From assembly GCA_032622095.1 (NCBI GenBank), contig CP136067.1, positions 558,001 to 622,000 on the forward strand: a stretch of DNA of 64,000 nucleotides. Direction: 5' to 3'. Under the pieces are notes generated by a model, which was not told the origin of the DNA, searched no databases, and saw nothing but the letters and a program-made list of their open reading frames with translations. Origin of the DNA: Siphonodentalium dalli. Taxonomy: Eukaryota; Mollusca; Scaphopoda; Gadilida; Siphonodentaliidae. The position numbers were made by a program, and so were the translations under genes. Below are positions 7,501 to 62,697 of the stretch, one piece after another (positions within the stretch are counted from its first letter, which is position 1; every line of letters begins with the position of its first letter).

Positions 7501-9207
7501 CAACAACCACAGAAACAGCTTCTACGACAATCGCAGAAACCGCGCCTACAACAACCACAGAAACAGCTTCTACGACAATCGCAGAAACCGCGCCTACAAC
7601 AACCACAGAAACAGCTTCTACAACAATCGCAGAAACCGCGCCTACAACAACCACAGAAACAGCTTCTACGACAATCGCAGAAACCGCGCCTACAACAACC
7701 ACAGAAACAGCTTCTACGACAATCGCAGAAACCGCGCCTACAACAACCACAGAAACAGCTTCTACGACAATCGCAGAAACCGCGCCTACAACAACCACAG
7801 AAACAGCTTCTACGACAGCAGCTGCTACAGTGTCTACGACAATCGCAGAAACAGCTTCTACGACAACCGCGGAAACAGCGTCTACGACAACAGCTGCTAC
7901 AGTTTCTACGACAACCCCAGAAACAGCTTCTACAACAACAGCTGCTACAGTTTCTACGACAACCGCAGAAACAGCGTCTACGACAGCAGCAGAAACAGTG
8001 TCTACGACAGCAGCTGCTACAGTTTCTACGACAACTGGAGAAACAGCTTCTACGACAATCGCAGAAACAGTTTCTACGACAACAGCTGCAATAGTTTCTA
8101 CGACAACCGGAGAAACAGCTTCTACGACAACAGCTGCTACAGTTTATACGACAACCGCAGAAACAGCTTCTACGACAACCACAGAAATAGCTTCTACGAC
8201 AACAGCTGCTACAGTTTCTACGACAACCGCAGAAACAGCTGCTACAACAATCGCAGAAACAGCTCCTTCGACAACCGGAGAAACAGCTTCTACGACAACC
8301 GCAGAAACAGCTTCTACGACAACCACAGAAACAGCGTCCACGACAACAGCTGCTACAGTTTCTACGACAACCACACAAACAGGTTCTACGACAACAGCTG
8401 CTACAGTTTCTACGACAACCACAGAAACAGCTTCTACTACAACCACAGAAACAGTGTCTACTACAACCACAGAAACAGTTTCTACGACAACCACAGAAAC
8501 AGCGTCTACTACAACCACAGAAACAGTTTCTACGACAACCACAGAAACAGCGTCTACTACAACCACAGAAACAGTGTCTACTACAACCACAGAAACAGTT
8601 TCTACGACAACCACAGAAACAGCGTCTACTACAACCACAGAAACAGTTTCTACGACAACCACAGAAACAGCGGCTACTACAACCACAGAAACAGTGTCTA
8701 CTACAACCACAGAAACAGTTTCTACGACAACCACAGAAACAGCGTCTACTACAACCACAGAAACAGTTTCTACGACAACCACAGAAACAGCGGCTACTAC
8801 AACCACAGAAACAGTTTCTACGACAACCACAGAAACAGCGTCTACTACAACCACAGAGACAGTTTCTACAACAACACAGCCGACAACAACTACAGAAACA
8901 GCGTCTACGACAACCGTGGTGACAGTTTCTACAACAACACAGCCGACAACAACTGCAGAAACAGCGTCTACGACAACCGTGGTGACAGTTTCTACGACAA
9001 CCGTGGTGACAGTTTCGACAACACAGCCGACAACAACGGCAGAAACAGCGTCTACGACAACCGTGGTGACAGTTTCGACAACAACACAGCCGACAACTAC
9101 AGCTGCGACAACAACTGCGGTGACAACAACTACCACGTCCACAACTACCTCCACAACTACCACGTCCACAACTACCACGTCCTGTCCTGGACCTCCATTT
9201 ATACCCG
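4510..9207 (+). CDS. Exon 1: giant Thr-rich mucin repeat exon
   Basis: The exon holds about 196 copies of an 8-residue (24 bp) unit of the form TTTGETAS, a dense Thr/Ser substrate for O-glycosylation as in PTS domains of mucins. Subtypes run in blocks: TTTGETAS-type to about 6107; a 16-residue unit TTIAETAPTTTTETAS from about 6108 to 7800; mixed AATVS units to 8400; TTTTETVS/TTTTETAS to about 8870; then QPTTT and TTVVTVS units and a TTTS tail ending CPGPPFIPG. An in-frame TAA at 4485-4487 and no ATG before the array mean this is an internal exon. The only usable acceptor AG is 4508-4509, giving phase 1 entry. The donor is GTAAGT at 9208, phase 1. The long open frames on the other strand and in the +1 frame are by-products of the 24 bp period. 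The acceptor's pyrimidine tract is weak, so the start is less sure than the end. Confidence 0.85.
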
Positions 9208-9365
9208 GTAAGTTCTCCTTGACCTCCTTCTATTCTTGGTAAATTTCCATGGACCTCCGTCTATTCTCAGTAAGTTTATTAGCAGTAAGTTTTCCTGGAC
9301 CTCCAGCCATTTCCGGTCAGTTTTCGTCTGGACCTCCAGTTATTAGCAGTAAGTTTTCGATATGA
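9188..9365 (+). repeat. Tandem copies of the exon 1 3' edge with donor sites
   Basis: Five imperfect units start with (T)GGACCTCC at about 9188, 9219, 9250, 9296 and 9329, spaced 31-46 bp. The first is coding; the others lie in the intron and carry donor-like hexamers (GTAAAT at 9239, GTAAGT at 9270, 9285 and 9349, GTCAGT at 9316). This is a duplication of the exon end plus splice donor. Confidence 0.75.
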
Positions 9366-9511
9366 TTTTTGGGTGAATGAATTAAGTGCTGCCAGCCATT
9401 ATGCGCGAATATAGACTTTGGTATTTATTAATTTTCATACCCACCCACTCCCTCCCCCTCAAGTCGCCACTGTCCTGAGTGTGCTTGTGCTTATGGCACA
9501 CTCGGTACATA

Positions 9512-9723
9512 CAGTAATGCCCTAAGTAATCGACTCCTTAAACACAGCAGAATTATGGGTAACTTTTCAGGATTTAGTCGGAAATGTGGCTTGTTGCCAT
9601 TCATCGGAAAGCTCTCCCCGAGAGCTTTCCGATGAATGGCAACAAGCATATTTCCGACTAAATCCTGAAAAGTTACCCATAATTCTGCTGTGTTTAAGGA
9701 GTCGATTACTTAGGGCATTGCTG
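9512..9723. mobile_element. MITE A, intact palindromic copy with TA flanks
   Basis: The inverted repeat spans the whole 212 bp; the ends CAGTAATGCCC and GGGCATTGCTG are flanked by TA (9510-9511, 9724-9725). The arms include AAGTTACCCATAATTCTGCT and its complement; the centre is CTCTCCCCGAGAG. It lies in intron 1. Confidence 0.88.
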
Positions 9724-9959
9724 TACTTAGTTGAATGCTACATTCAGTCAGACTATATTTAAAAATACCTGTTTTCCCGTGACCATACATGTATACCCCA
9801 AATTTCAAGAATGAGTAGGTAAGTCACCTGGGTTGGTAGGTAATTTATTTTTACAATTAATCACTGGCTGGACGATTCACCCTTTCTGTACTTAATATTC
9901 ATGGACGAGTAAATGTTCATGGAGGGTTTATTAGGGACTGGGGAATCAAACACAATTTT

Positions 9960-10150
9960 TGTGGTAACATATTATTTTGGCCTCATTGGTAACAGTTATT
10001 TTGGCCTCAGAGGAAACAGTTAATTTTGGCCTCAGTGGTATCAGTTAATTTTGGCCTCAGTGGTAACGGTTAAGTTTGGCTTCAGTGGTAACGGTTAATT
10101 TTGGCCTCAGTGATAACAGTTAAGTTTTGCCTCAGTGGTAACAGTTAACT
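9960..10150. repeat. ~25 bp tandem repeat, about 7 units
   Basis: The unit is GGTAACAGTTAATTTTGGCC plus TCAGT with small changes. Confidence 0.88.
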
Positions 10151-10252
10151 ATAATGAAAATGAATGATGATGGGAGTCATTCATCATAATTATCATATTG
10201 TTTGCATCCTTCATAGAGCACATGATTGTATTTTACATTAATCCACGGCTCA

Positions 10253-10397
10253 AATTTACCTGTATTTACCTGTATTCACCTGTATTTACCTGTATTTTAC
10301 CTGTATTTACATGTATTCACCTGTATGTACCTGTATTTACCTGTATTTACATGTATTTACCTGTATTTACCTGTATTTACCTGTATTTACCTGTATT
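10253..10397. repeat. ~10 bp tandem repeat, about 14 units
   Basis: The unit is ACCTGTATTT with few variants (ACATGTATTT, ACCTGTATGT). Confidence 0.9.
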
Positions 10398-10521
10398 CTT
10401 GAGCCTTATAAGCTTTCGCTTGTTGTGGCTAATACGTTCGTCCTTGATTTAAAAATTTTGTTGCGCATGTCTTTGAAATCGTAGTGGAATTTGTTTTCTT
10501 TATCTCTCCATTGGTCATTAA

Positions 10522-10980: not shown

Positions 10981-10992
10981 TTAAGAATTAAA

Positions 10993-11289: not shown

Positions 11290-11432
11290 AAATGGTCGGT
11301 TTAGTGTACAGTGTCCCTTTAATAAGAGTGAAAATAGTTATGTATTTACTTATGTTTAATAACAGTGAAAATTGTTATGCGTACATTGTTATATGATAGA
11401 TTTATTTGTGGTATATGTACATTTCGCTGCAG

Positions 11433-11542
11433 GTGGGTATCCATTCGGTAACCGTAGTTTCACGGGTGATGACGTCACATCCAACTTCATCTACATTCAG
11501 GACGGTTTTCCATTCGGAACAGAGACTCATCATCGGATATAT
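11433..11542 (+). CDS. Exon 2: NIDO domain, N-terminal part
   Basis: The acceptor is TTTCGCTGCAG ending at 11432 and the donor GTAAGT at 11543; phase 1 in, phase 0 out. The 36-codon piece contains GYPFGNRSF and QDGFPFGTETHHRIY, the FPFG-x-x-Y lead-in of NIDO domains that precedes the conserved VxTNGxxSF strand supplied by exon 3. NIDO is the extracellular nidogen/entactin-type domain found in MUC4, tectorin and SNED1-type proteins, probably used in protein-protein contact. The exon 1 tail (CPGPPFIPG) joins it directly, so the mucin stalk sits immediately N-terminal of NIDO. The exon is short but frame, splice sites and motif agree. Confidence 0.85.
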
Positions 11543-11805
11543 GTAAGTATGGAGGGTAAAACGGGTCATAATTATAATACAACCCTAATCATTTGAAACA
11601 AGAGACTATGTAAGTATGGAGGGTAAAAGGGTCATAATTATAATATAACCCGAACCATTGGGAACAGAGATTCGTTATCGGGTCTATATAAGTATGGAGG
11701 GTAAAAAGGGTCATAGTTCTAATATAAACGTAACCATTCAGAACATATACTCATTATTGGGTCCATGTAAGTATGGAGGGAAAACCTGTCATAATTATAA
11801 TGACT
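11511..11805 (+). repeat. Tandem copies of the exon 2 3' edge with donor sites
   Basis: Four units begin CATTcGGAAC or similar at 11511 (coding), 11590, 11656 and 11735 (79, 66 and 79 bp apart). Each holds the exon end, a donor and about 45 nt of intron. Donors are GTAAGT at 11543, 11610 and 11767; the third unit's is mutated to ATAAGT. Reading past the first donor reaches a stop at 11594-11596, so the extra donors are not frame-compatible. Confidence 0.8.
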
Positions 11806-14060: not shown

Positions 14061-14187
14061 CAGTCACTATAACTGCCTATATATCCGAGTACTAACATGC
14101 TTACAAACAACATTACTCAGTACTCGTAAATTGTTTGAAAAAAAAACACATTTTGGAAATTTTTTACAAATACAAGCATACTCTCAT

Positions 14188-15008: not shown

Positions 15009-15075
15009 TATAATTGGTAGTTCGGTTTCTTCATTATGGTTTATTACAAGTATTTGACATTTGTGTGGGTGGAAT

Positions 15076-15490: not shown

Positions 15491-15537
15491 CGAATCTAAA
15501 CCAAACAAACCTTGAAATGAGGATATCTATTTTTTAC

Positions 15538-16908: not shown

Positions 16909-16913
16909 TTTAA

Positions 16914-18433: not shown

Positions 18434-18555
18434 TTAAGTAACTTATCTGGTGCTTGATCCTGCACAGACACGGTTTTTTGGCTTTGTTATTAAATGTGAA
18501 ACTGCTTCCCATATGATAACTGAATTCATCTACACCTAATTATTTAATTTTACAG

Positions 18556-18861
18556 GTTGGAACAAATGGAATCGTCAGCTTCACGACACCATACAATAGC
18601 CCAAATTCACAGCCATTCAATACAACATTCAACCATGCTGTCATCGCTCCATTGTGGACCGATTTGGTTGCATTTGGCTGCGGGAAAGTCCATTACGAGC
18701 ATCACTCAGTTGATGACCCAAACAGCAATCAGACTGTTATCACCATGACAGATGATTGGCTTGTAGAAATCCTGAATGTAGTTGGATTTTCAGCGACCGA
18801 CGTGATCGTTGTCACTTGGGTCCATGTGACACAGTACCCTTACTCCCAATATAAAGATGAG
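18556..18861 (+). CDS. Exon 3: NIDO domain, central part
   Basis: The acceptor TTTTACAG ends at 18555 and the donor GTGAGT starts at 18862; phase 0 in and out, 102 codons. The sequence begins VGTNGIVSFTTPY and continues with VIAPLWTDLV, a run typical of NIDO domains (new strand after 'TNG', then 'IAPLW/FWxD'). Later come MTDDWLVEILNV and VIVVTWVHVTQYP, matching the 'xVTWxxVxYxx' strand of the family. It joins exon 2 and exon 4 in phase 0. The 0-0 pair inside NIDO contrasts with mostly phase 1 boundaries elsewhere, as expected for introns within rather than between domains. This is one of the most secure exons of the gene. Confidence 0.92.
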
Positions 18862-18980
18862 GTGAGTTAAGCTTACTCCCAATATATTGATCAGGTGATT
18901 TTACCAGCGACCGACGTGATCATCATCGCTTGGGTCATGTGACCCTTACTCCTAATATGATCATACGCAAGCGTAATTAA

Positions 18981-21132: not shown

Positions 21133-21520
21133 AATTAGTCAGACTTGAAAGTGACGGTAGGATTTCTTTTTATACCTTAAAATGATCTATACATCATCAG
21201 GCGATTCAGGACAGCAACGATTCATCGTGATTTCAATGCAGCCCATTTTTTTTCTATGAATCGGAACGTAAAATCTTTAATGTCTGATGTGTTGACGCAC
21301 GACTTTAAATGTGGCCTGGGTTTTTTTAATAAATCTCCATGCCGTATTTTCCCGGTTATGTTTAATCTTATGATGTATTTTTGAGGTTGTTTTAATCGTT
21401 ATGGCATATGTTCCGGGTTGTCTTGAATCTTTATGCCATCACGGTACATGTATTTGCTGGGTTGTCTTGAATCTTTATGTCGTCACGGTAGTTGCTGGGT
21501 TGTTTTTAATCTTTTAATTT
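21133..21520. other. Sequence before exon 4
   Basis: Two or three diverged 50 bp units with GGGTTGTCTTGAATCTTTAT (21410-21520) precede the exon 4 pyrimidine tract; the rest is not recognised. Confidence 0.5.
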
Positions 21521-21530
21521 TATTTTGCAG

Positions 21531-21747
21531 AGTACATCATTCCAGTTAGTGCTGGCTACAGATGGAACTCATTCGTATTCCGGATTCCTTTACGGAGGAG
21601 GGACTACCTTGACGCGGATACCCCAGAGGCATTACATCATAGGATACTACAAAACACCACAAGATGCAGATAAAAACTTCTTCAATCACCCTCGTTCCAA
21701 TTCTGTGTGGGCGCTCAAAATGCATGAGGCCTACGATAGAACAATCG
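21531..21747 (+). CDS. Exon 4: NIDO domain, C-terminal part (shortest form)
   Basis: The acceptor TATTTTGCAG ends at 21530. The shortest form ends at donor GTGAGT 21748, phase 1, 72 codons plus one base. STSFQLVLATDG, YSGFLYGGG and IIGYYKTPQDADKNFF are the closing strands of NIDO (the 'FQ.VL.TDG..S...F.Y' motif). The end is ambiguous: the final part of the exon and its donor are repeated 17 times in frame up to 22900, so a longer exon to as far as 22899 with 24-residue repeats is possible (see the 72 bp array). The shortest form was chosen because the unrepeated sequence joins exon 5 in frame and the first donor, CG|GTGAGT, is at least as good as the later ones. Confidence 0.8.
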
Positions 21748-22964
21748 GTGAGTATGATAGAATAACTAGTAATTATGTGTGGGCGCTCAAAATGTATGAC
21801 TCCTATGATAGAACAATCAGTGAGTATTATAGAATAACTAGTAATTATGTGTGGGCGCTCAAAATGTATCAGTCCTACGATAGAACAATCAGTGAGTATT
21901 ATAGAATAACTAGTAATTATGTGTGGGCGCTCAAAATGTATGACTCCTATGATAGAACAATCAGTGAGTATGATAGAATAACTAGTAATTATGTGTGGGC
22001 GCTCAAAATGTATGACTCCTATGATAGAACAATCAGTGAGTATTATAGAATAACTAGTAATTATGTGTGGGCGCTCAAAATGTATGACTCCTATGATAGA
22101 ACAATCAGTGAGTATTATAGAATAACTAGTAATTATGTGTGGGCGCTCAAAATGTATCAGTCCTACGATAGAACAATCAGTGAGTATTATAGAATAACTA
22201 GTAATTATGTGTGGGCGCTCAACATGCATGAGTCCTATGATAGAACAATCAGTGAGTATTATAGAATAACTAGTAAGTATGTGTTGGCGCTCAACATGCA
22301 TGAGTCTTATGATAGAACAATCAGTGAGTATTATAGAATAACTAGTAATTATGTGTGGGCGCTCAAAATGTATGACTCCTATGATAGAACAATCAGTGAG
22401 TATGATAGAATAACTAGTAATTATGTGTGGGCGCTCAAAATGTATGACTCCTATGATAGAACAATCAGTGAGTATGATAGAATAACTAGTAATTATGTGT
22501 GGGCGCTCAAAATGTATGACTCCTATGATAGAACAATCAGTGAGTATTATAGAATAACTAGTAATTATGTGTGGGCGCTCAAAATGTATGACTCCTATGA
22601 TAGAACAATCAGTGAGTATGATAGAATAACTAGTAATTATGTGTGGGCGCTCAAAATGTATGACTCCTACGATAGAACAATCAGTGAGTATTATAGAATA
22701 ACTAGTAATTATGTGTGGGCGCTCAAAATGTATGACTCCTATGATAGAACAATCAGTGAGTATGATAGAATAACTAGTAATTATGTGTGGGCGCTCAAAA
22801 TGTATGACTCCTATGATAGAACAATCAGTGAGTATGATAGAATAACTAGTAATTATGTGTGGGCGCTCAAAATGTATGACTCCTATGATAGAACAATCAG
22901 TGAGTATGATAGAATAACTAGTAATTATGTGTGGGCGCTCAAAATGTATCAGTCCTACGACCAG
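21705..22964 (+). repeat. 72 bp array of exon 4 edge plus donor, 17 in-frame units
   Basis: The unit is 72 bp (24 codons), with GTGTGGGCGC starting at 21705, 21777, 21849 and so on. Each unit carries A/G|GTGAGT, giving 17 candidate donors at 21748 + 72k up to 22900. No unit has an in-frame stop, so any donor leaves the reading frame unchanged and adds 24 residues (RITSNYVWALKM and YDSYDRTISEY segments). Variation is limited to a few codons (Y/D, Y/Q, H/E), so expansion looks recent. The array breaks off after a partial 18th unit at about 22964. Confidence 0.9.
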
Positions 22965-23100
22965 AGACGTGGCGACAGGGGGGGGGGGCAAAAATATGAT
23001 GAGCAAAGAAAATCCTTATTACAGAAACTTAACATAGACATTAACAATTTGACCACCTTATCCAGAGATTTCCTAAAATACTACTCAAACCAAAAAAAAC
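22965..23100. other. Short spacer between two tandem arrays
   Basis: It contains a run of G (about 22980-22988) and ordinary AT-rich sequence. The exon 4 frame stays open through it to a stop at 23124-23126, but there is no donor and no recognised domain. Confidence 0.5.
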
Positions 23101-26100
23101 ATTCTATACTATCAGTCACACCATAAAGTAACCATTCTATAATATAGGTCACACCATAAAGTAACCATTCTATAATATAGGTCACACCATAAAGTAATCA
23201 TTCTATACTATCAGTCACACCATAAAGTAACCAATCTATAATATAGGTCACACCATGAAGTAACCATTCTATAATATAGGTCACACCATGAAGTAACCAT
23301 TCTATAATATAGGTCACACCATAAAGTAACCATTCTATAATATAGGTCACACCATAAAGTAACCATTCTATAATATAGGTCACACCATGAAGTATCCATT
23401 CTATAATATAGGTCACACCATGAAGTAACCATTCTATAATATAGGTCACACCATGAAGTAACCATTCTATAATATAGGTCACACCATAAAGTAACCATTC
23501 TATAATATAGGTCACACCATAAAGTAACCATTCTATAATATAGGTCACACCATGAAGTAACCATTCTATAATATAGGTCACACAATAAAGTAACCATTCT
23601 ATAATATAGGTCACACAATAAAGTAACCATTCTATACTATAGGTCACACCATAAAGTAACCATTCTATACTATAGGTCACACCATGAAGTAACCATTCTA
23701 TACTATAGGTCACACCATGAAGTAACCATTCTATAATATAGGTCACACCATGAAGTAACCATTCTATAATATAGGTCACACCATAAAGTAACCATTCTAT
23801 AATATAGGTCACACCATAAAGTAACCATTCTATAATATAGGTCACACCTTGAAGTAACCATTCTATAATATAGGTCACACCATAAAGTAACCATTCTATA
23901 ATATAGGTCACACCATAAAGTAACCATTCTATAATATAGGTCACACCATGAAGTAACCATTCTATAATATAGGTCACACCATGAAGTAACCATTCTATAA
24001 TATAGGTCACACCATGAAGTAACCATTCTATAATATAGGTCACACCATAAAGTAACCATTCCATACTATCAGTCACACCATAAAGTAACCATTCTATAAT
24101 ATAGGTCACACCATGAAGAAACCATTCTATAATATAGGTCACACCATGAAGAAACCATTCTATAATATAGGTCACACCATGAAGTATCCATTCTATAATA
24201 TAGGTCACACCATAAAGTAACCATTCTATAATATAGGTCACACCATAAAGTAACCATTCTATAATATAGGTCACACCATAAAGTAACCATTCTATAATAT
24301 AGGTCACACCATAAAGTAACCATTCTATAATATAGGTCACACCATAAAGTAACCATTCTATAATATAGGTCACACCATGAAGTAACCATTCTATACTATC
24401 AGTCACACCATAAAGTAACCATTCTATAATATAGGTCACACCATAAAGTAACCATTCTATAATATAGGTCACACCATAAAGTAACCATTCTATAATATAG
24501 GTCACACCATAAAGTAACCATTCTATAATATAGGTCACACCATAAAGTAACCATTCTATAATATAGGTCACACCATAAAGTAACCATTCTATAATATAGG
24601 TCACACCATAAAGTAACCATTCTATAATATAGGTCACACCCTAAAGTAACCATTCTATAATATAGGTCACACCATGAAGTAACCATTCTATAATATAGGT
24701 CACACCATGAAGTAACCATTCTATAATATAGGTCACACCATGAAGTAACCATTCTATAATATAGGTCACACCATAAAGTAACCATTCTATAATATAGGTC
24801 ACACCATAAAGTAACCATTCTATAATATAGGTCACACCATGAAGTAACCATTCTATAATATAGGTCACACCATAAAGTAACCATTCTATAATATAGGTCA
24901 CACCATGAAGTAACCATTCTATAATATAGGTCACACCATGAAGTAACCATTCTATAATATAGGTCACACCATAAAGTAACCATTCTATAATATAGGTCAC
25001 ACCATAAAGTAACCAGTCTATATTATCAGTCACACCATAAAGTAACCATTCTATAATATAGGTCACACCATAAAGTAACCATTCTATAATATAGGTCACA
25101 CCATAAAGTAACCATTCTATAATATAGGTCACACCATGAAGTAACCATTCTATAATATAGGTCACACCATGAAGTAACCATTCTATAATATAGGTCACAC
25201 CATAAAGTAACCATTCTATAATATAGGTCACACCATGAAGTAACCATTCTATAATATAGGTCACACCCTAAAGTAACCATTCTATACTATCAGTCACACC
25301 ATGAAGTAACCATTCTATAATATAGGTCACACCATGAAGTAACCATTCTATAATATAGGTCACACCATGAAGTAACCATTCTATAATATAGGTCACACCA
25401 TAAAGTAACCATTCTATAATATAGGTCACACTATAAAGTAACCATTCTATAATATAGGTCACACCATGAAGTAACCATTCTATAATATAGGTCACACCAT
25501 AAAGTAACCATTCTATAATATAGGTCACACCATGAAGTAACCATTCTATAATATAGGTCACACCATAAAGTAACCATTCTATAATATAGGTCACACCATG
25601 AAGTAACCATTCTATAATATAGGTCACACCATAAAGTAACCATTCTATAATATAGGTCACACCATGAAGTAACCATTCTATAATATAGGTCACACCATGA
25701 AGTAACCATTCTATAATATAGGTCACACCATAAAGTAACCATTCTATAATATAGGTCACACCATGAAGTAACCATTCTATAATATAGGTCACACCATGAA
25801 GTAACCATTCTATAATATAGGTCACACCATGAAGTAACCATTCTATAATATAGGTCACACCATGAAGTAACCATTCTATAATATAGGTCACACCATGAAG
25901 TAACCATTCTATAATATAGGTCACACCATAAAGTAACCATTCTATAATATAGGTCACACCATAAAGTAACCATTCTATAATATAGGTCACACCATAAAGT
26001 AACCATTCTATAATATAGGTCACACCATAAAGTAACCATTCTATAATATAGGTCACACCATAAAGTAACTATTCTATAATATAGGTCACACCATAAAGTA

Positions 26101-29015
26101 ACCATTCTATAATATAGGTCACACCATAAAGTAACCATTCTATAATATAGGTCACACCATGAAGTAACCATTCTATAATATAGGTCACACCATAAAGTAA
26201 CCATTCTATAATATCAGTCACACCATGAAGTAACCATTCTATAATATAGGTCACACCATGAAGTAACCATTCTATAATATAGGTCACACCGTAAAGTAAC
26301 CATTCTATAATATAGGTCACACCATAAAGTAACCATTCTATAATATCAGTCACACCATGAAGTAACCATTCTATAATATAGGTCACACCATGAAGTAACC
26401 ATTCTATAATATCAGTCACACCATGAAGTAACCATTCTATAATATAGGTCACACCATAAAGTAACCATTCTATACTATCAGTCACACCATAAAGTAACCA
26501 TTCTATAATATAGGTCACACCATAAAGTAACCATTCTATAATATAGGTCACACCATAAAGTAACCATTCTATAATATAGGTCACACCATAAAGTAACCAT
26601 TCTATAATATAGGTCACACCATAAAGTAACCATTCTATAATATAGGTCACACCCTAAAGTAACCATTCTATAATATAGGTCACACCATGAAGTAACCATT
26701 CTATAATATAGGTCACACCATGAAGTAACCATTCTATAATATAGGTCACACCATGAAGTAACCATTCTATAATATAGGTCACACCATAAAGTAACCATTC
26801 TATAATATAGGTCACACCATGAAGTAACCATTCTATAATATAGGTCACACCATAAAGTAACCATTCTATAATATAGGTCACACCATGAAGTAACCATTCT
26901 ATAATATAGGTCACACCATGAAGTAACCATTCTATAATATAGGTCACACCATAAAGTAACCATTCTATAATATAGGTCACACCATAAAGTAACCAGTCTA
27001 TATTATCAGTCACACCATAAAGTAACCATTCTATAATATAGGTCACACCATAAAGTAACCATTCTATAATATAGGTCACACCATAAAGTAACCATTCTAT
27101 AATATAGGTCACACCATGAAGTAACCATTCTATAATATAGGTCACACCATGAAGTAACCATTCTATAATATAGGTCACACCATAAAGTAACCATTCTATA
27201 ATATAGGTCACACCATGAAGTAACCATTCTATAATATAGGTCACACCCTAAAGTAACCATTCTATACTATCAGTCACACCATGAAGTAACCATTCTATAA
27301 TATAGGTCACACCATGAAGTAACCATTCTATAATATAGGTCACACCATGAAGTAACCATTCTATAATATAGGTCACACCATAAAGTAACCATTCTATAAT
27401 ATAGGTCACACTATAAAGTAACCATTCTATAATATAGGTCACACCATGAAGTAACCATTCTATAATATAGGTCACACCATAAAGTAACCATTCTATAATA
27501 TAGGTCACACCATGAAGTAACCATTCTATAATATAGGTCACACCATAAAGTAACCATTCTATAATATAGGTCACACCATGAAGTAACCATTCTATAATAT
27601 AGGTCACACCATAAAGTAACCATTCTATAATATAGGTCACACCATGAAGTAACCATTCTATAATATAGGTCACACCATGAAGTAACCATTCTATAATATA
27701 GGTCACACCATAAAGTAACCATTCTATAATATAGGTCACACCATGAAGTAACCATTCTATAATATAGGTCACACCATGAAGTAACCATTCTATAATATAG
27801 GTCACACCATGAAGTAACCATTCTATAATATAGGTCACACCATGAAGTAACCATTCTATAATATAGGTCACACCATGAAGTAACCATTCTATAATATAGG
27901 TCACACCATAAAGTAACCATTCTATAATATAGGTCACACCATAAAGTAACCATTCTATAATATAGGTCACACCATGAAGTAACCATTCTATAATATAGGT
28001 CACACCATGAAGTAACCATTCTATAATATAGGTCACACCATAAAGTAACCATTCTATAATATAGGTCACACCATAAAGTAACCATTCTATAATATAGGTC
28101 ACACCGTGAAGTAACCATTCTATAATATAGGTCACACCATGAAGTAACCATTCTATAATATAGGTCACACCATAAAGTAACCATTCTATAATATAGGTGA
28201 CACCATGAAGAAACCATTCTATAATATAGGTCACACCATAAAGTAACCATTCTATAATATAGGTCACACCATAAAGTAACCATTCTATAATATAGGTCAC
28301 ACCATGAAGTGACCATTCTATAATATAGGTCACACCATGAAGTAACCATTCTATAATATAGGTCACACCATGAAGAAACCATTCTATAATATAGGTCACA
28401 CCATAAAGTAACCATTCTATAATATAGGTCACACCATAAAGTAACCATTCTATAATATAGGTCACACCATGAAGTAACCATTCTATAATATAGGTCACAC
28501 CATGAAGTAACCATTCTATAATATAGGTCACACCATGAAGTAACCATTCTATAATATAGGTCACACCATAAAGTAACCATTCTATAATATAGGTCACACC
28601 ATGAAGTAACCATTCTATAATATAGGTCACACCATAAAGTAACCATTCTATAATATAGGTCACACCATAAAGTAACCATTCTATAATATAGGTCACACCA
28701 TAAAGTAACCATTCTATAATATAGGTCACACCATAAAGTAACCATTCTATAATATAGGTCACACCATAAAGTAACCATTCTATAATATAGGTCACACCAT
28801 GAAGTAACCATTCTATAATATAGGTCACACCATGAAGTAACCATTCTATAATATAGGTCACACCATAAAGTAACCATTCTATAATATAGGTCACACCATG
28901 AAGTAACCATTCTATACTATAGGTCACACCATGAAGTAACCATTCTATACTATAGGTCACACCATGAAGTAACCATTCTATAATATAGGTCACACCTTGA
29001 AGTAACCATTCTATT
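23101..29015. repeat. 33 bp minisatellite, about 179 units, intron 4
   Basis: The unit is about 33 bp (GGTCACACCATGAAGTAACC plus CATTCTATAATATA-type sequence), repeated almost without interruption. The main variants differ at ATAAAG/ATGAAG and ATAATATAGG/ATACTATCAG. It ends only about 28 nt before the exon 5 acceptor, so nearly all of intron 4 is tandem repeat. The minus-strand open frames of 60-580 residues (repeats of YIIEWLLYGVT or RMVTLWCDLYY) arise because 33 is divisible by 3, and are not genes. Confidence 0.95.
24620..27960. repeat. Higher-order duplication inside the 33 bp array
   Basis: Rare marker variants recur at a fixed offset of 1980 bp (60 units): AACCAGTCTA at 25011 and 26991, the CACTATAAAG variant near 25430 and 27410, and the CACCCTAAAG marker near 25265 and 27245. 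The pair near 24638 and 26651 is offset by 2013 bp, one extra unit. So about 1.3 kb (roughly 24.62-25.98 kb) was duplicated as 26.63-27.96 kb, with a one-unit indel since. Confidence 0.8.
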
Positions 29016-29043
29016 TATATATATTTCTCCCTCGGTATTTCAG

Positions 29044-29285
29044 ATAAAACTGGCGTCATCATCTTAAAACTCACCCCTGATGTGTCGCAACAGGTTAATT
29101 ACGGCGCACTGTGTAGGGCATGGTACAGGGATGAAAACAGGAAGCCAGCAAGAAGATGGTATAGCTGGTATAGTAGACATATGATATGTCCATGTTGGGA
29201 GCGGTGGATGATACTCGATTATCGTCTCATCTATACCGGATCTGGATGTTACATATTCCATTCTCCTTTCTACCCATATACAAAG
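29044..29285 (+). CDS. Exon 5: AMOP domain, N-terminal half
   Basis: The acceptor TCGGTATTTCAG ends at 29043; the donor is AAAG|GTAAAT at 29286. Phase 1 in, phase 0 out. After KTGVIILKLTPD, the cysteine/tryptophan pattern ALCRAWY, WYSWY, ICPCWERW and SGCYIF is that of AMOP (adhesion-associated domain in MUC4 and other proteins), where 'C.xW' and 'CPC' motifs open the domain. AMOP follows NIDO in MUC4-like proteins, as here. The last 105 nt of this exon, from 29181, are copied with the donor seven more times downstream. Using the second donor would add 145 nt and shift the frame, so the first donor is the workable one. Confidence 0.88.
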
Positions 29286-30320
29286 GTAAATATTCTCTAT
29301 ATTGAGGGAATCACTCCCCCCACGTATGATATGTCCATGTTGGGAGCGGTGGATGATACTCGATTATCGTCTCATCTATACCGGATCTGGATGTTACATA
29401 TTCCATTCTCCTTTCTACCCATATACAAAGGTAAATATTCTCTATATTGAGGGAATCACTCCCCCCACGTATGATATGTCCATGTTGGGAGCGGTGGATG
29501 ATACTCGATTATCGTCTCATCTATACCGGATCTGGATGTTACATATTCCATTCTCCTTTCTACCCATATACAAAGGTAAATATTCTCTATATTGAGGGAA
29601 TCACTCCCCCCACGTATGATATGTCCATGTTGGGAGCGGTGGATGATACTCGATTATCGTCTCATCTATACCGGATCTGGATGTTACATATTCCATTCTC
29701 CTTTCTACCCATATACAAAGGTAAATATTCTCTATATTGAGGGAATCACTCCCCCCACGTATGATATGTCCATGTTGGGAGCGGTGGATGATACTCGATT
29801 ATCGTCTCATCTATACCGGATCTGGATGTTACATATTCCATTCTCCTTTCTACCCATATACAAAGGTAAATATTCTCTATATTGAGGGAATCACTCCCCC
29901 CACGTATGATATGTCCATGTTGGGAGCGGTGGATGATACTCGATTATCGTCTCATCTATACCGGATCTGGATGTTACATATTCCATTCTCCTTTCTACCC
30001 ATATACAAAGGTAAATATTCTCTATATTGAGGGAATCACTCCCCCCACGTATGATATGTCCATGTTGGGAGCGGTGGATGATACTCGATTATCGTCTCAT
30101 CTATACCGGATCTGGATGTTACATATTCCATTCTCCTTTCTACCCATATACAAAGGTAAATATTCTCTATATTGAGGGAATCACTCCCCCCACGTATGAT
30201 ATGTCCATGTTGGGAGCGGTGGATATGATACTCGATTATCGTCTCATCTATACCGGATCTGGATGTTACATATTCCATTCTCCTTTCTACCCATATACAA
30301 AGGTAAATATTCTATATATT
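29181..30320 (+). repeat. 145 bp array of exon 5 edge plus donor, 8 donors
   Basis: The unit is 105 nt of exon 5 (from 29181) plus 40 nt of intron. GTAAAT donors lie at 29286, 29431, 29576, 29721, 29866, 30011, 30156 and 30303. The middle units look identical by eye; the last has a 2 bp insertion near 30224. 145 is not a multiple of 3, and stops occur on read-through, so the downstream donors act at most as decoys. Confidence 0.92.
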
Positions 30321-30392
30321 GAGGGAATCATCCCCCCACCCACTTACCTTATATGGTTACACATAAAACAAGTATGATATGTCCATGTTGGC

Positions 30393-36300: not shown

Positions 36301-37718
36301 TTAGAGTTATCTTTCTTTGTTTGTAGGCATGTTGCTATCGGATTGAGATTCTAATTAGAAGTGCTCCTGGAGCTGGTGGTCTTATTACATGCTATGAGAA
36401 TGAGATCGTGATTAGAGTTATCTTTCTTTGTTTGTAGGCATGTTGCTATCGGATTGAGATTCTGATTATAAGTGCACCTGGTGCTGGTGGTCTTATTACA
36501 TGCTATGAGAATGAGATCGTGATTAGAGTTATCTTTCTTTGTTTGTAGGCATGTTGCTATCGGATTGAGATTCTGATTATAAGTGCTCCTGGAGCTGGTG
36601 GTCTTATTACATGCTATGAGAATGAGATCGTGATTAGAGTTATCTTTCTTTGTTTGTAGGCATATTGCTATCGGATTGAGATTCTGATTATAAGTGCTCC
36701 TGGAGCTGGTGGTCTTATTACATACTATGAGAATGAGATCGTGAATAGAGTTATCTTTCTTTGTTTGTAGGCATGTTGCTATCGGATTGAGATTCTGATT
36801 ATAAGTGCACCTGGTGCTGGTGGTCTTATTACATGATATGAGAATGAGATCGTGATTAGAGTTATCTTTCTTTGTTTGTAGGCATGTTGCTATCGGATTG
36901 AGATTCTAATTAGAAGTGCTCCTGGAGCTGGTGGTCTTATTACATGATATGAGAATGAGATCGTGATTAGAGTTATCTTTCTTTGTTTGTAGGCATGTTG
37001 CTATCGGATTGAGATTCTGATTATAAGTGCTCCTGGTGCTGGTGGTCTTATTACATGATATGAGAATGAGATCGTGATTAGAGTTATCTTTCTTTGTTTG
37101 TAGGCATGTTGCTATCGGATTGAGATTCTGATTATAAGTGCTCCTGGTGCTGGTGGTCTTATTACATGCTATGAGAATGAGATCGTGATTAGAGTTATCT
37201 TTCTTTGTTTGTAGGCATGTTGCTATCGGATTGAGATTCTAATTAGAAGTGCTCCTGGAGCTGGTGGTCTTATTACATGCTATGAGAATGAGATCGTGAA
37301 TAGAGTTATCTTTCTTTGTTTGTAGGCATGTTGCTATCGGATTGAGATTCTGATTATAAGTGCTCCTGGTGCTGGTGGTCTTATTACATACTATGAGAAT
37401 GAGATCGTGATTAGAGTTATCTTTCTTTGTTTGTAGGCATGTTGCTATCGGATTGAGATTCTGATTATAAGTGCTCCTGGAGCTGGTGGTCTTATTACAT
37501 ACTATGAGAATGAGATCGTGATTAGAGTTATCTTTCTTTGTTTGTAGGCATGTTGCTATCGGATTGAGATTCTGATTATAAGTGCTCCTGGTGCTGGTGG
37601 TCTTATTACATGATATGAGAATGAGATCGTGATTAGAGTTATCTTTCTTTGTTTGTAGGCATGTTGCTATCAGAATGAGATTCTTATTAGAACTGCTCCT
37701 GGAGCTGGTGCTCTTATT
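33367..37718 (+). repeat. 111 bp array of exon 6 acceptor plus exon edge, 33 acceptors
   Basis: Each unit has about 50 nt of intron ending TTTCTTTGTTTGTAG and the first 60 nt of exon 6 (GCATGTTGCTATC...). Acceptors fall at 33589 + 111k (8 sites to 34366) and 34995 + 111k (25 sites to 37659, the real exon start). Truncated units lie at 33367-33580. TAG of the acceptor is in frame with exon 6, so use of any upstream site would include a stop. The array is interrupted at about 34387-34948. Confidence 0.93.
34387..34948. other. Unrelated insertion inside the 111 bp array
   Basis: About 520-560 bp without resemblance to the array, interrupting one unit. No open frame of note and no clear terminal repeats; its origin is not recognised. 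Confidence 0.6.
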
Positions 37719-37866
37719 ACACGAAATCCAATGTTTGACCGAAATGGATGGATGCAAAACGATGTCATTCCTAAAGAAAACTGCTGCGAGAAATCCAACA
37801 ACTGCCGCCTGTACTACCAGGTGCGACCAATCGGGTGGTGTTATCGCCGACCAACTTTCAGAATCA
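37659..37866 (+). CDS. Exon 6: AMOP domain, C-terminal half
   Basis: The acceptor TTTGTTTGTAG ends at 37658; the donor GTAAGT is at 37867; phase 0 in, phase 1 out. ACCYQNEILI, then ENCCEKSNNCRLYY, QVRPIGWCYRRP is the 'CCY', 'CC...C..Y...RP...C' pattern that closes AMOP domains. The first 60 nt match the upstream 111 bp array. This copy differs from the array consensus (for example ATCAGAATGAG and CTTATTAGAACTGC) and then continues into unique coding sequence at about 37719, which identifies it as the functional exon. It joins exon 5 in phase 0. Confidence 0.9.
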
Positions 37867-40219: not shown

Positions 40220-41138
40220 TGACGACCAATATCTCGAAGAATTTAGCACGTAGAGGGCTTATTTTGGCGTCTAACGAAAGTACCATATTCACCCCAATTA
40301 AATATATTAACCCCCGCCAATCATAGGACACGATATTGTTCATTATTTGGCCAACAATTTATCTACACTAAAAATGTTGAAACCAAGGCTGGGGGACAGC
40401 TGCAGAATTGGTTTTTAACAGTGAAAAAAGTATGCCCATAAGAAAACTTTGAATGAAAATGAAGCTTAGGGGGATGTCAAAATGTTTTTTTCGGATTTGC
40501 GAAAAAAAATGTTGAAAATCTGTTGATGTAAAAGTGCGAAAACAAAATGACGAAAAATTATGCAACTACGAAAGTGACTGGCCATAAAAGGTTGGTAAAT
40601 GTTGAAACCACAACATAGGCCTATAACTGACAATGGAAAAATCAACGACGAGGCTCAAGCGCCAGCGTTTATGCACATACGGAAATCATTTTGACATGAC
40701 CCCTAATAAAATAGCATCTATTACACAACATACCTGTATTCATTACAGTGAAGCGGCTGTATTGGTACATCTATAGACCAATTAACCCATACATGGGAAG
40801 GTACTACGAAAAATGGAAAAACTACCTTCGACATCAATGTTTAGAATTTACATTTGTTGATGAATTCATACGCTAGCATACAACACATTATGTATAACAT
40901 GACGGAGTGAGCTACTTCGCTTTCATTTCCATATCCGATATGACTACTTTGGACCTGTATACATGCTGCACTGAACACGACGCTGATTTATTATAAGCTT
41001 AAAGTAGACTCGGTATTTACAAAAATAATTTCTATTTCCACTGATTTATTCCATATAATCGGGCATATTTTGTATAAAGATAATGTAGGACTATCTGGTG
41101 AGAATGGATTTTTTTGCTAAAATATTTCCACTTCTGAT
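40220..41138. other. Intron 6 stretch with nothing recognised
   Basis: AT-rich sequence with short random frames only. No repeat family or palindrome was identified by eye. Confidence 0.5.
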
Positions 41139-41143
41139 CAACA

Positions 41144-41192
41144 AATTGAGGCAACAGATGGGTCTAAATATATACTCACTTAACGGTGTTAT
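41144..41192 (+). repeat. Decayed copy of the exon 7 5' edge
   Basis: The segment around 41144-41192 (CAACAGATGGG, TACTCACTTAACGGT) aligns with exon 7 at about 41216-41268 (CGACAGATGGG, TACTCATTTAACGGT). It lies just upstream of the acceptor, offset by about 75 bp, so it is an old duplication of the exon start. Confidence 0.7.
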
Positions 41193-41204
41193 GTATTATT
41201 ACAG

Positions 41205-41450
41205 TTGTATTGTGGGGTGATCCACATATCGAGACGACAGATGGGCGCAGATACTCATTTAACGGTTTCGGCGAGTATCATCTCCTCAAAATTGACAACA
41301 GCACAACTCAGATTGATATCCAAGCGAGAACAGGGTTTGCGCTGTCGAAGAACAACACTAAGGTTAATGCCACAGTGTTTACGGCGTGTGCCGGAAACGA
41401 CAGTTATAACGGAGCCAGTTTCCATGTGGAACTCTCACCAGATAGAACAT
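41205..41450 (+). CDS. Exon 7: VWD domain, N-terminal part
   Basis: The acceptor TATTATTACAG ends at 41204; the donor GTGAGT is at 41451; phase 1 in and out. VLWGDPHIETTDG followed by RYSFNGFGEYHLLKI is the 'GDPH...DG..Y.FNG.GEY' signature that opens von Willebrand factor type D domains in MUC4-like proteins. It continues QIDIQARTGF and a Cys (TACAG) before ending FHVELSPDRT. It follows AMOP directly, as in MUC4. A decayed duplicate of its 5' edge lies in the preceding intron. The exon call is secure. Confidence 0.93.
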
Positions 41451-41541
41451 GTGAGTTTGTTAGTTAGTTTATGATGCCGATATTTTTTAAGTCATTTGGG
41501 GTAACTACTAACTTTTTTATTTTTTTATATCTATATATTAA

Positions 41542-42130: not shown

Positions 42131-42193
42131 GTAAATTCAGTTCTTTTGTGTAAATATTGAGCGATGATTATTCAAGCATTTAACATGTCATTT

Positions 42194-42549
42194 TATTTTT
42201 TCCACAGGGATTGTTATCTATCTGAATGGTTATGGTATTTACATCTCATTTTTTTCATCAGGTTATTCATGACATTTAATGTGTAGTTTTATTTTTTCCA
42301 CAGGTATTGTTATCTATGTGATCGGTTATGGTATTTACATCTCATTTTATTTTTTCATCAGCGATAGTTATTCATGACTTATAATGTGTCGTTTTTTTTC
42401 CTGCAGCCATAATTATGTATACGATTGGTCTGACATGACATGTAACACCTCATTTTATGTTTTTTCTTCAACAATGCTCATTTTATGTTTTTTTTCTTTG
42501 GCAATGTTTATTCATGACATTTAACATCTTGTTTTATGTTTTTCCTCAG
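42194..42549 (+). repeat. Tandem copies of the exon 8 acceptor region
   Basis: Imperfect units of about 100 bp contain a pyrimidine tract, AG, then GATTGTTATCTATCTGAA-like sequence resembling the exon 8 start (CGATGATAATCTTTGTGAA). Acceptor-like sites precede 42208, 42304 and 42407; the real one precedes 42550. The copies are old and diverged. Confidence 0.7.
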
Positions 42550-42678
42550 CGATGATAATCTTTGTGAATGACCAGGACAAAACAACAAATTTCTACAATA
42601 GTCAGGATTTTAATTACGCTGCAACAAACATCATGGCGAAGCGCGTTAACGATTCCATCATCATGGTGCTTAATTCAG
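42550..42678 (+). CDS. Exon 8: VWD domain, central part
   Basis: The acceptor TTTTTCCTCAG ends at 42549; the donor G|GTAAAG is at 42679; phase 1 in and out. The exon (MIIFVNDQDKTTNFY, then AATNIMAKRVNDSIIMVLNSG) corresponds to the middle strands of VWD, where MUC4-like proteins have a short stretch before the 'fsv.v.v..' strand that begins exon 9. There are no diagnostic motifs on its own; support comes from splice sites, phase and position between two clear VWD exons. Confidence 0.82.
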
Positions 42679-54099: not shown

Positions 54100-54384
54100 T
54101 TATTCCAGGGTTGCTGAGCCCCACATTGACCCGAGCAAACGGCAGTCATCAGTACATTGTTCTCTCTTCCAGGGTTGGTGATCGTCTCTGATTCAGTATT
54201 CAGGTATCACACTCCCGTAGGGTGCCCCACACAGATTTGAGCAGACAACAGTCATCATTACATTGTTCTCTCTTCCAGGGTTGGTGAGCGCCTCTGATAC
54301 AGTATTCAGGTTTCACACTCCCGTAGGGTGCCCCACACGGATTCGAGCAGACGACAGTCATCATTACATTGTTCTCTCTTCCAG
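54100..54384 (+). repeat. Tandem copies of the exon 10 acceptor and 5' edge, 106 bp unit
   Basis: Acceptors ending CCAG precede 54109, 54173, 54279 and the real start 54385; the last three are 106 bp apart. Each unit has TTCTCTCTTCCAG, GGTTGGTGAGCGCCTCTGAT and CAGTATTCAGG of exon 10, then a linker resembling family C (GGGTGCCCCACACAG, GAGCAGACGACAGTCATC). Confidence 0.88.
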
Positions 54385-54630
54385 GGTTGGTGAGCGCCTC
54401 TGATTCAGTATTCAGGTATCCCAATGGGAAAACACATGCCGACTTCACAAACACAAATTTCGAGCCAATCTTCCTTGACGAGGTTGATCCAACAACGCTT
54501 AACAACGCCAAGACAATCTGCGGAGATAACAATGAGTGCATACTCGATTACATCGCGACTGGCGATCAAACCGTAGCTGAGGACTCAAAGACGACGGGTG
54601 ACAAAACTACTCAAGAAGATGCTATTCTCA
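54385..54630 (+). CDS. Exon 10: conserved region after VWD
   Basis: The acceptor TCTCTCTTCCAG ends at 54384; the donor A|GTAAGT is at 54631; phase 1 in and out. WLVSASDSVFRYPNGKTHADF, then NFEPIFLDEVD and TICGDNNECILDYIATGD follow the pattern of MUC4-like proteins after VWD ('W.v...eSlF.Y..G.s...f....F.P.f' and 'C...C..D...TG'). The tail KTTGDKTTQEDAIL is Thr/acid-rich. The upstream 106 bp repeats each carry the first 35-40 nt of this exon. This copy is chosen because only it continues into the rest of the coding sequence and its first base pair completes W with exon 9. Confidence 0.9.
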
Positions 54631-54671
54631 GTAAGTTCCAACCGAAGCTGGTCCTATACGACAAGTGACAA

Positions 54672-54745
54672 AACTACATGTATATGACGAGACTACTCAA
54701 GAGATGATATTCTCTGTTAATTCTGACTGAAACTGGTCCTGTGCG
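54672..54745 (+). repeat. Decayed copy of the exon 10 3' edge
   Basis: GAGACTACTCAAGAGATGAT, ATTCTCTGTTAATTC and GAAACTGGTCCTGTGCGA match the exon 10 end plus early intron (54600-54660). The donor has changed to GTTAAT. A further fragment (ACGACAAGCAACTCAAGAAG) lies near 54810-54840. Confidence 0.75.
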
Positions 54746-58065: not shown

Positions 58066-58069
58066 AATA

Positions 58070-60480: not shown

Positions 60481-60538
60481 ATAGATTATGCTAGGAAGTA
60501 CCGCCAATTATCACATTCTCTAAAAAAAGGTTAGCTTC

Positions 60539-60776
60539 TTAACACTTTGAGTGCCAGGTCGATTTTTGTATCAACCCATATACCCTGTGCCAATGCATTC
60601 TCTTATATATGCGAGTCGACCATAGGTCGCCTCGCATATATAAGAGAATGCATTGGCCTAACATTTTTTTTTTTTTTTTTTTACAATTTTTTACAATTTT
60701 AATAATTTATTCTTATATTATTTAACAGACTTATTTTTAGGTTTAGGGCCGATGAAATCGGCACTCAAAGGGTTAA
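60539..60776. mobile_element. Second TTAA-flanked MITE family with nested B-core half
   Basis: TTAA at 60539-60542 and 60773-60776; inner ends CACTTTGAGTGCC and GGCACTCAAAGGG. The middle is occupied by the first B-core palindrome (60584-60658) and T-rich spacer. Confidence 0.7.
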
Positions 60777-60923
60777 ACACACCGACTGCGATAATAGAAT
60801 CACCCACTGAACAGTGATACACATGATTCTTTGTTGAAGTATAAAAATGGTAACTTCAATTATGGGGCATGTATCAGATATCAAACAGGCTGCCTCACAC
60901 AGTTGATACACTCTTGTAGTTAA

Positions 60924-61356
60924 AGATGCATAATTCAAATTAATGCTGCCAAATGACTATTTCTTTGGCTTCGGGGGTGTAAAATGTTTGATTCGAGTCG
61001 AGGAACCCACCCATCAAAACTCAGAGTGATCAGATAACGATTTTTGAAATTTGTTATTTCTTGAAATGTTTAATTATTTGTGGCCCAGAAGCGAGTCGTC
61101 AAGCCGATTGTCTCGGACAAAATTTGCCGATGAAGATGGATAACTCTAAATTCAAGTGGTAATACGGCCAATTTTTGTGATATGAAAGTAATAATACGAC
61201 CATATTTCGTTGAACAACATCTTGATAAATAACACGTTTTTGGGAAATTTTATACCATAGTTGATATCGGTTAACATTAATCGATTCTGATAACAAAAGC
61301 ATATTTTGAAGAAATTTTGTTGTTGTTGTAACTTGGACTGATTGGATTGAGTACCT
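60924..61356. repeat. Family D element, diverged copy
   Basis: It has the GGCTTCGGGGGT, TTGATTCGAGTCGAGGAACC and GATGGATAACTCTAAATTCA blocks and the right end GATTGAGTACCT|TTAA (61357-61360). Confidence 0.7.
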
Positions 61357-61360
61357 TTAA

Positions 61361-62245
61361 GGCCTTTTATGTGCTGCCTCATTGCACAGAGATACACTGC
61401 TTGACATAATTGTGCATTCTCTTATATATGCGAATCTCCCATTTATAAGACTCGCATTTATAAGAGTATTGCACTGACACAGGGTCTTTAATGCCGCATC
61501 AGCACTTTTTTAACACTTTTGACCATTTTTTCTTACATTCTTTAACAATTTTATAATTTTTTCTAACATTTTTTAACAATTTTTATAATATTTTTCTACA
61601 TTCTTTGACAATTTTATCATTTTTAATATGTGTTAAGCCAATGCATTCTCTTATATATTCGAGGCGACCTATGGTCGACTCGCATATATAAGAGAATGCA
61701 TTGGCACAGGGCCGATTTGTTGTGAAAAGGGTTTAGGCCTTTTATGTGCTGCCTCATTGCACAGAGATACACTGCTTGACATAATTGTGCATTCTCTTAT
61801 ATATGCGAATCTCCCATTTATAAGACTCGCATTTATAAGAGTATTGCACTGACACAGGGTCTTTAATGCCGCATCAGCACTTTTTTAACACTTTTGACCA
61901 TTTTTTCTTACATTCTTTAACAATTTTATAATTTTTTCTAACATTTTTTAACAATTTTTATAATATTTTTCTACATTCTTTGACAATGTTATCAATTTTA
62001 ATATGTGTTAAGCCAATGCATTCTCTTATATATGCGAGGCGACCTATGGTCGACTCGCATATATAAGAGAATGCATTGGCACAGGGCCGATTTGTTGGGT
62101 AAAGGGTTTAGGCCTTTTATGTGCTGCCTCATTGCACAGAGATACACTGCTTGACATAATTGTGCATTCTCTTATATATGCGAATCTCCAATTTATAAGA
62201 CTCGCATTTATAAGAGTTTGCACTGACACAGGGTCTTTAGTGCCG
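61361..62245. repeat. 375 bp tandem repeat, 2.4 copies, containing a B-family part
   Basis: GGCCTTTTATGTGCTGCCTC starts at 61361, 61736 and 62111, exactly 375 bp apart. Each full unit has a degenerate small palindrome (CGAATCTCCCATTTATAAGA), the T-rich spacer and the second B-core palindrome plus a CCGATTTGTTGGGTAAAGGG end. The third unit stops after about 130 bp. Confidence 0.9.
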
Positions 62246-62306
62246 CATCAGCGCAGCTCCCATCATCAAAGGGATAATAAGGAGAAATATATAAAGTTTA
62301 ATGTTT

Positions 62307-62389
62307 AACCCACAGGGAGCCTCACCCAGATAGAAGCATGCACTACAGAGTGTCGTCTGCTGTAGTCTATGTGGGGTTCTCTATGGGTT
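62307..62389. mobile_element. Family C MITE with TTAA on both sides
   Basis: TTAA|CCCACAGGGAGCCTCA ... GTGGGGTTCTCTATGGG|TTAA. The clearest evidence that family C is also a TTAA-target element. It ends about 30 bp before the exon 11 acceptor. Confidence 0.8.
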
Positions 62390-62420
62390 AAACTGTCAGG
62401 AAAGGGTTAAATCTTTTCAG

Positions 62421-62631
62421 GTAACTCGATTCCGAATGTTTTCTCGGACACCGCAGTCCTACATGCTACAATCGGTGTTGAGAGTACGATTACTTTCGAA
62501 GCCAACGACACTGATGCTGCCGACAATGTGACCTTACAGATCATACAACAACCCGCCACAGGTTTCACCTTTGACCTTTCAACTCAGGTCGTCACGTGGA
62601 CACCTGCTGATACAACTGCCGTATCTATACA
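62421..62631 (+). CDS. Exon 11: cadherin/Ig-like domain
   Basis: The acceptor AATCTTTTCAG ends at 62420; the donor CA|GTAAGT is at 62632; phase 1 in, phase 2 out. SNSIPNVFSDTAVL, STITFEANDTDAADNVTLQII, then FDLSTQVVTWTPADT give the pattern of cadherin/Ig-like beta-sandwich domains ('N.PP.F', 'A.D.D.gD.v', 'G..tWtP'). This kind of domain follows the VWD part in invertebrate mucin-like proteins. Final strands would be on the next exon, where EGF-like sequence begins after about 20 residues. The acceptor lies just behind a family C MITE. Confidence 0.85.
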
Positions 62632-62662
62632 GTAAGTCTGAGTTATCTTCCCTGACTTATGA

Positions 62663-62697
62663 CAGGGGGCGCCACATGAACGCCTGCTGATATTGAA
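62663..62697 (+). repeat. Possible decayed copy of the exon 11 3' edge
   Basis: CAGGGGGCGCCACATGAACG and CCTGCTGATAT resemble CAGGTCGTCACGTGGACACC and TGCTGATACA at the end of exon 11. It is short, so the match is only suggestive. Confidence 0.5.

Follow-up and report, generated by a model that had tools for sequence, protein, structure and literature searches.

Mirage-like tandem duplications of exon–intron boundaries in a mucin-like gene of the scaphopod Siphonodentalium dalli

In amphioxus, minisatellite-like duplications of exon–intron boundaries have been described under the name of mirages (PMC3087553, PMC3902484). As far as the excerpts of these reports go, the genes concerned are Adh3, the globins BflGb6 and BflGb9, troponin C and PGBD5, the last two coming from PMC3902484. 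The excerpts describe clusters on the donor or the acceptor side, with units of 10–160 bp and many copies that carry the AG or GT. The copies are homogenized among themselves, the copy at the cluster boundary standing apart, and reverse transcription-PCR in lancelets suggests that splicing is undisturbed (PMC3087553, PMC3902484). Here, we describe boundary-spanning arrays in a mucin-like gene of Siphonodentalium dalli, a scaphopod mollusc. The gene lies on the forward strand of a 64,000-nt window (contig CP136067.1, hereafter C7, positions 558001–622000) of a 2.23-Gb genome in nine contigs. Positions in the gene are given within this window, and all analyses were performed within this one genome.

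A tandem duplication ran across the boundary at 9 of the 21 junctions placed in this gene: the donors of exons 1, 2, 3, 4, 5 and 10 and the acceptors of exons 6, 8 and 10. In the features covered by the excerpts, the gene resembles the amphioxus mirages: the tandem unit spans the exon–intron boundary, the array adjoins the exon on six donor and three acceptor edges, and most, not all, copies keep the AG or GT (113/124, counted with those of three close paralogs). The units, of about 31 to 145 bp and different at each edge, fall inside the published range of about 10–160 bp, and by inspection the copies at exons 4 and 6 are homogenized to the exclusion of the boundary copy. Unlike the amphioxus cases as excerpted, the gene has nine duplicated junctions out of 21, one of its acceptors is present in about 33 copies, and its close paralogs carry duplications at the same edges. 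It is a rich instance of a known and named phenomenon. The initial annotation of the window, made from the letters alone, had reported edge duplications at about half of the gene's junctions and knew of no name for them. The name exists, and the extent holds at 9/21, without the exon 7 acceptor and exon 11 donor that the annotation had included.

To score duplication at a junction, we required an ungapped match that ran through the junction, at offsets of 15–400 and with a threshold of 18. Eight of the 21 junctions reached this threshold: the donors of exons 1 (score 32), 2 (51), 4 (70), 5 (80) and 10 (25), and the acceptors of exons 6 (70), 8 (18) and 10 (71). A score of 18 was never reached at any position in one dinucleotide-shuffled copy of the window. 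The exon 12 donor was scored one base past its true place, with no array nearby. The exon 3 donor was added to the automatic eight on further evidence. Its score at the exact junction was 0, yet it adjoins a duplicated segment (18843–18929; 33-bp unit, decayed), and a 26-bp copy runs through the donor at 18876–18901, with an equally good copy in 0/300 shuffles. This donor also scored 63–80 in three paralogs. We counted it as the ninth edge because of the adjoining segment, the 26-bp copy and the clear paralog arrays. A gapped search found spanning copies at the same nine edges, and the identity of copies ranged from 0.77 to 0.997 across the arrays. These data bear out the earlier assignment of donor copies downstream of exons 1, 2, 3, 4, 5 and 10, as well as the claim that the arrays differ in age.

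The arrays were delimited using Tandem Repeats Finder, the junction scores and, for exon 4 and the decayed duplications at exons 8 and 10 (donor), the gapped search. At exon 1 (3' part, 4488–9207; donor CCCG/GTAAGT, the slash marking the junction), a donor-edge array with a period of about 31 bp occupies 9185–9359. Exon 2 (11433–11542) has donor-edge units of about 66–79 bp at 11518–11801. The exon 4 array (exon, 21531–21747; array, 21699–22957) comprises 17.5 copies of a 72-bp unit whose frame is open throughout, and that of exon 5 (29044–29285) comprises eight copies of a 145-bp unit with 99% matches at 29180–30383. On the acceptor side, exon 6 (37659–37866) is preceded by two blocks of a 111-bp unit, at 33371–34389 and 34946–37721, the second with 25 copies and extending into the exon. 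Exon 8 (42550–42678) is preceded by decayed duplications of an approximately 96-bp unit (42168–42538). Exon 10 (54385–54630) has about three copies of a 106-bp unit at its acceptor edge (54118–54420) and a decayed duplication with an offset of 85 bp at its donor edge (54625–54737).

The array copies at exons 4 and 6 appeared, by inspection, to be homogenized among themselves, with the boundary copy apart. At exon 4, the 12 copies displayed out of 16 end in CA, and the exon itself ends in CG. At exon 6, CGGATTG was present in 12/12 copies within 1.4 kb where the exon has CAGAATG; the latter motif does occur in copies further up. In the region of the exon 4 array (21510–23126), one frame is open for 538 codons with all of its donors in phase, so that protein length could vary if the inner donors were ever used. 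Most of intron 4 is taken up by about 179 copies of a 33-bp unit at 23100–29014, which end about 30 bp before the exon 5 acceptor and exclude it.

Two further duplications proved to be remnants of exon interiors. The copy upstream of exon 7 (exon, 41205–41450; copy, 41135–41162) matches 41218–41245 within the exon and lacks the acceptor, and the copy downstream of exon 11 (exon, 62421–62631; copy, 62667–62692) matches 62587–62612 and lacks the donor. In each case, 0/300 shuffles contained a copy as good. Accordingly, the acceptor copies proposed upstream of exons 6, 7, 8 and 10 stand at exons 6, 8 and 10, and the possible donor copy at exon 11 falls away.

The exons were placed on the basis of open frames, GT-AG ends and consistent phases. 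Eleven were found, namely 1–8 and 10–12 (exon 12, 63667–63848); exon 9, looked for via VWD-like motifs, was not found in the window. A long Thr-rich repeat exon is followed by the Pfam domains NIDO, VWD and C8-3_MUC4. NIDO matched 18520–18870 (E=3.2e-12; exon 3, 18556–18861) and, below the curated cut-off, 21510–21720 in exon 4 (E=1.5e-4; 22.2 bits against 25). VWD matched 41168–41467 (E=7.2e-6) in exon 7 and C8-3_MUC4 matched 54327–54668 (E=5.6e-10) in exon 10. The Cornifin match of the repeat exon was also below its cut-off (18.2 against 34.8), and no Pfam family was returned for three of the eight pieces queried (29001–29211, 42525–42641 and 63584–63856). Exon 1 contains a long Thr-rich coding minisatellite of 24/48-bp units (4515–8875), which lies within a 1,584-codon open frame.

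We then compared the gene with its three close paralogs, C7b (C7:688–731 kb), C2a (C2:34–145 kb) and C2b (C2:14.06–14.18 Mb), whose exons are 87–99% identical to those of the window. The comparison covered exons 2–8 and 10–12 and, for most paralog exons, no more than about 800 bp of flanking sequence per side. All ten exons aligned over their full or nearly full length, with splice signals in the same places. Spanning duplications with scores of at least 18 were present at 3/10 donors and 0/10 acceptors in C7b, 5/10 and 3/10 in C2a, and 4/10 and 3/10 in C2b. All eight of the arrayed window edges testable in the paralogs scored at least 18 in at least one of the three; therefore, most arrays are probably older than the paralogs. 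Within the distance read, the paralogs differed in copy number at the same edges. Some edges were duplicated in paralogs only: the exon 6 donor in C2a, and the exon 7 acceptor, which is fully arrayed in C2a and C2b (offsets of 82 and 164). The gapped search also found sub-threshold spanning copies at the exon 5 donor and exon 8 acceptor in C7b and at the exon 10 donor and exon 11 acceptor in C2a and C2b; these were kept out of the above counts. C2a and C2b are very similar, oppositely oriented gene copies that lie on the same contig at a distance of 14 Mb, and represent either a recent inverted duplication or a scaffolding fault.

To evaluate how the copies decay, we compared their splice dinucleotides with their other positions in the window and the three paralogs. 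The dinucleotide was retained in 113/124 copies, against an expected 0.88 derived from an identity of 93.7% over the remaining positions. The mean of 34 arrays was 0.78 kept and 0.83 expected. The dinucleotides are thus lost at about the neutral rate, with no sign of protection or destruction. In simple matrices, 32/33 acceptor copies at exon 6, 7/7 donor copies at exon 5 and 2/3 acceptor copies at exon 10 equalled the true site. At exons 2, 3 and 8, some copies outscored the true site; at exons 1, 4 and 10 (donor), the true site was stronger than its copies. As the true site is not the stronger at several edges, strength alone cannot decide there.

At 8/9 edges, splicing at the nearest tested copy would change the reading frame or run into a stop; exon 4 alone remains in frame and open. 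The frame shifts at exons 1, 2, 5 and 10 (both sides), and an in-frame stop follows at exons 6 and 8; the copies tested for exons 2 and 8 lack a splice dinucleotide of their own. For exon 3, the test was made on the copy at +998, the +33 copy being skipped, and gave a shift and stops. Since the nearest copies break the frame, the exon-proximal site must predominate for the protein to be made. The choice of this site may be due to exon definition.

To assess the background against which the edge arrays arose, we measured the coverage of local tandem duplications. Within the gene, they take up 45% of the positions in intron interiors (score of at least 20); in 30 samples from arbitrary places in the genome, the average was about a third of positions, very patchily distributed. 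At donors of the window gene and its three paralogs, coverage at the junction was 0.31–0.50, similar to that of the adjoining intron, and fell to 0.04–0.09 at 60–120 bp inside the exon. At acceptors, it was 0.04–0.30 at the junction, lower than the 0.19–0.60 found at least 20 bp into the intron. The initial annotation had held that arrays lying anywhere in introns, and not preferentially at exon edges, would speak against it; arrays do lie at many intron places, which is part of that outcome. An effect of the chromosome end on array density seemed likely from the first 20 samples and was dropped with the full 30 (Mann–Whitney P=0.33): the mean was 0.37 (median 0.25) in 19 samples no more than about 2 Mb from a contig start and 0.26 (median 0.09) in the 11 further in. 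Coverage was 0.069 both at one match near a contig start (C1:0.695 Mb) and at its copy at C3:211.15 Mb.

Beyond the close paralogs, we examined 49 exons: 19 of myosin, 16 of VWD type and 14 of distant NIDO/VWD/C8 relatives. One myosin exon was most similar to two scallop entries, by a margin of 2 bits over human myosin-7. A search for the hemocyanin beta-sandwich (PF14830) returned no match, a negative to which the tool's own warning denies any weight. Two loci were left out, L051 (one of 20 myosin loci, with stops inside the match) and L035 (with stops, apparently two merged exons). Splice sites of the controls were predicted with a simple matrix and the loci read to 600 bp, with a hand check of flagged loci only. 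The coverage profile took 39 donors and 41 acceptors, poorly predicted edges being dropped. Donor-edge copies occurred in 4 of the 35 myosin and VWD exons (L052, L057, L070 and L079). No acceptor-edge copy was seen among these exons, inspection having passed over one flagged zone at an acceptor, that of L055 (peak 20). Two of these donors, those of L052 and L057, scored at least 18 automatically; L070 (score 17) and L079 (donor mispredicted) were added after inspection of seven flagged control loci. In the clean case, L052, the last ~60 bp of a myosin exon and its donor repeat about 77 bp downstream; the L057 copy lacks the GT. In L079 (C8:79.43 Mb), a VWD-type exon, several further copies of the donor edge GCCTTGTGAG/GTAC follow the exon, at about 833–1326, and this is another mirage, in an unrelated gene. 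By contrast to the 9/21 edges of the window gene, 4/70 control edges were duplicated (Fisher P=0.00015). None of the 28 predicted edges of the 14 distant relatives, some of them weakly predicted, had a spanning duplication; the duplication in the donor zone of L042 scored 61 and by eye begins after the donor. The habit is present elsewhere in the genome, and the clade of the window gene is extreme among those sampled. In the same genome, more than 90 of the 135 listed protein kinase matches fall in C2:149.83–150.60 Mb, most of them near-identical 281-codon open frames and many at intervals of about 2.4 or 2.9 kb.

We consider it likely that the arrays are mirages, that is, minisatellites that grew from a tandem duplication which by chance crossed an exon–intron boundary and was tolerated. 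They lie to the intron side of exons that are themselves intact and conserved. Replication slippage or unequal exchange would found and expand arrays in introns generally, and the large number of edge arrays in the gene would reflect introns that are rich in tandem arrays as far as the exon borders. An array spanning a donor or acceptor would be tolerated since the copy attached to the exon retains its splice site, which is the one selected: under exon definition, the 5'-most donor and the 3'-most acceptor would be picked, leaving the extra sites as decoys that decay neutrally. Arrays throughout the introns, approximately neutral decay and nearest copies that are unusable at 8/9 edges support the tolerance that the initial annotation had offered as one explanation. 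Several results weigh against this reading as a full account. The nine junction-spanning arrays exceed the 3.0 expected under uniform founding from 43 intron-only arrays over 27.6 kb of collapsed intron (P=0.0035), and other thresholds gave 8 against 2.7 and 7 against 2.45 (P=0.007 and 0.013); because the count exceeds uniform founding, neutrality without any edge preference is unproven. The deep introns of four distant paralogs are partly array-rich (coverage of 0.445, 0.162, 0.458 and 0.01), and spanning duplications were found at 0/20 edges tested in these four genes and 0/8 edges of other NIDO genes. The control donor rate of 4/35 is not below the local coverage, 7% over the 49 loci. Array density alone therefore need not explain everything, and a preference for edges is possible.

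Such a preference would follow if splice junctions were favoured sites of tandem duplication, for example through motifs or co-transcriptional structures that promote slippage or repair. The excess by count and the donor-edge copies in the unrelated control exons speak for this, an explanation that we nevertheless regard as unlikely. A twofold detection advantage for exon-anchored copies brings P to 0.15 (range 0.15–0.22), donor junctions are covered about as much as the adjoining intron, and acceptor junctions less. Junction arrays should in any case remain visible for longer than intron-only arrays, because one copy is held by the exon. The local tendency to duplicate at junctions, the other explanation in the initial annotation, is thus weakly favoured by a threefold excess that detection bias could largely explain. 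We give very little credence to the idea that selection keeps the arrays, whether as a reserve of splice sites or for variable proteins made through different copies. The exon 4 array, whose 72-bp unit leaves the frame open to 23126 with any donor keeping phase, and the persistence of same-edge duplications in paralogs would fit it. Against it, GT and AG are kept at about the neutral rate, the nearest tested copy breaks the frame at the other eight edges, and in both C2a and C2b the only exon 4 copy observed has GC rather than GT. An origin of the arrays in faulty assembly is similarly remote. Assembling arrays of near-identical units is difficult, one contig has C2a and C2b as near-duplicate loci in two places, and an amphioxus globin mirage seems, according to its authors as excerpted, to be mis-assembled in the genome draft (PMC3087553); the graded differences among copies, the unit lengths particular to each edge and the differing paralog copy numbers at the same edges argue for real arrays. 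The arrays of this gene are most likely harmless and a side effect of the abundance of tandem repeats in the genome.

Outside the lancelets, a human minisatellite, presumably that of 6-16/IFI6, is said by the title of its description to repeat a splice donor in a tandem array; it differs in concerning one gene and in providing several donors in the transcript. Introns are also reported to arise from tandem duplications that hold splice signals (Rogers 1989, Zhuo 2007, Gao and Lynch 2009; cited in PMC3087553). In the cited account, as here, a tandem duplication carries splice signals to new places; the present arrays differ in showing no new intron, the ends of the ten compared exons being unchanged across the three close paralogs. 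Our literature search, in which most subscription papers were unsearchable, returned no report for this gene type, nor of mirages by name outside lancelets, and nothing judged from listings to be on point for boundary arrays in molluscs.

Boundary arrays of this kind may mislead gene predictors. Exon 6, with 33 acceptor copies of which 32 equal the true site, and exon 5, with seven equal donors, suit a test of positional splice-site choice using RNA reads. It is doubtful, though conceivable, that the genome of this non-lancelet animal is prone throughout to boundary-spanning duplication, with a true preference for junctions; if so, genes with tens of equal acceptors would be natural experiments on how the spliceosome chooses the exon-nearest site. 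The window gene is the densest mirage gene among those examined here, and it suggests that mirages extend beyond a few lancelet genes.

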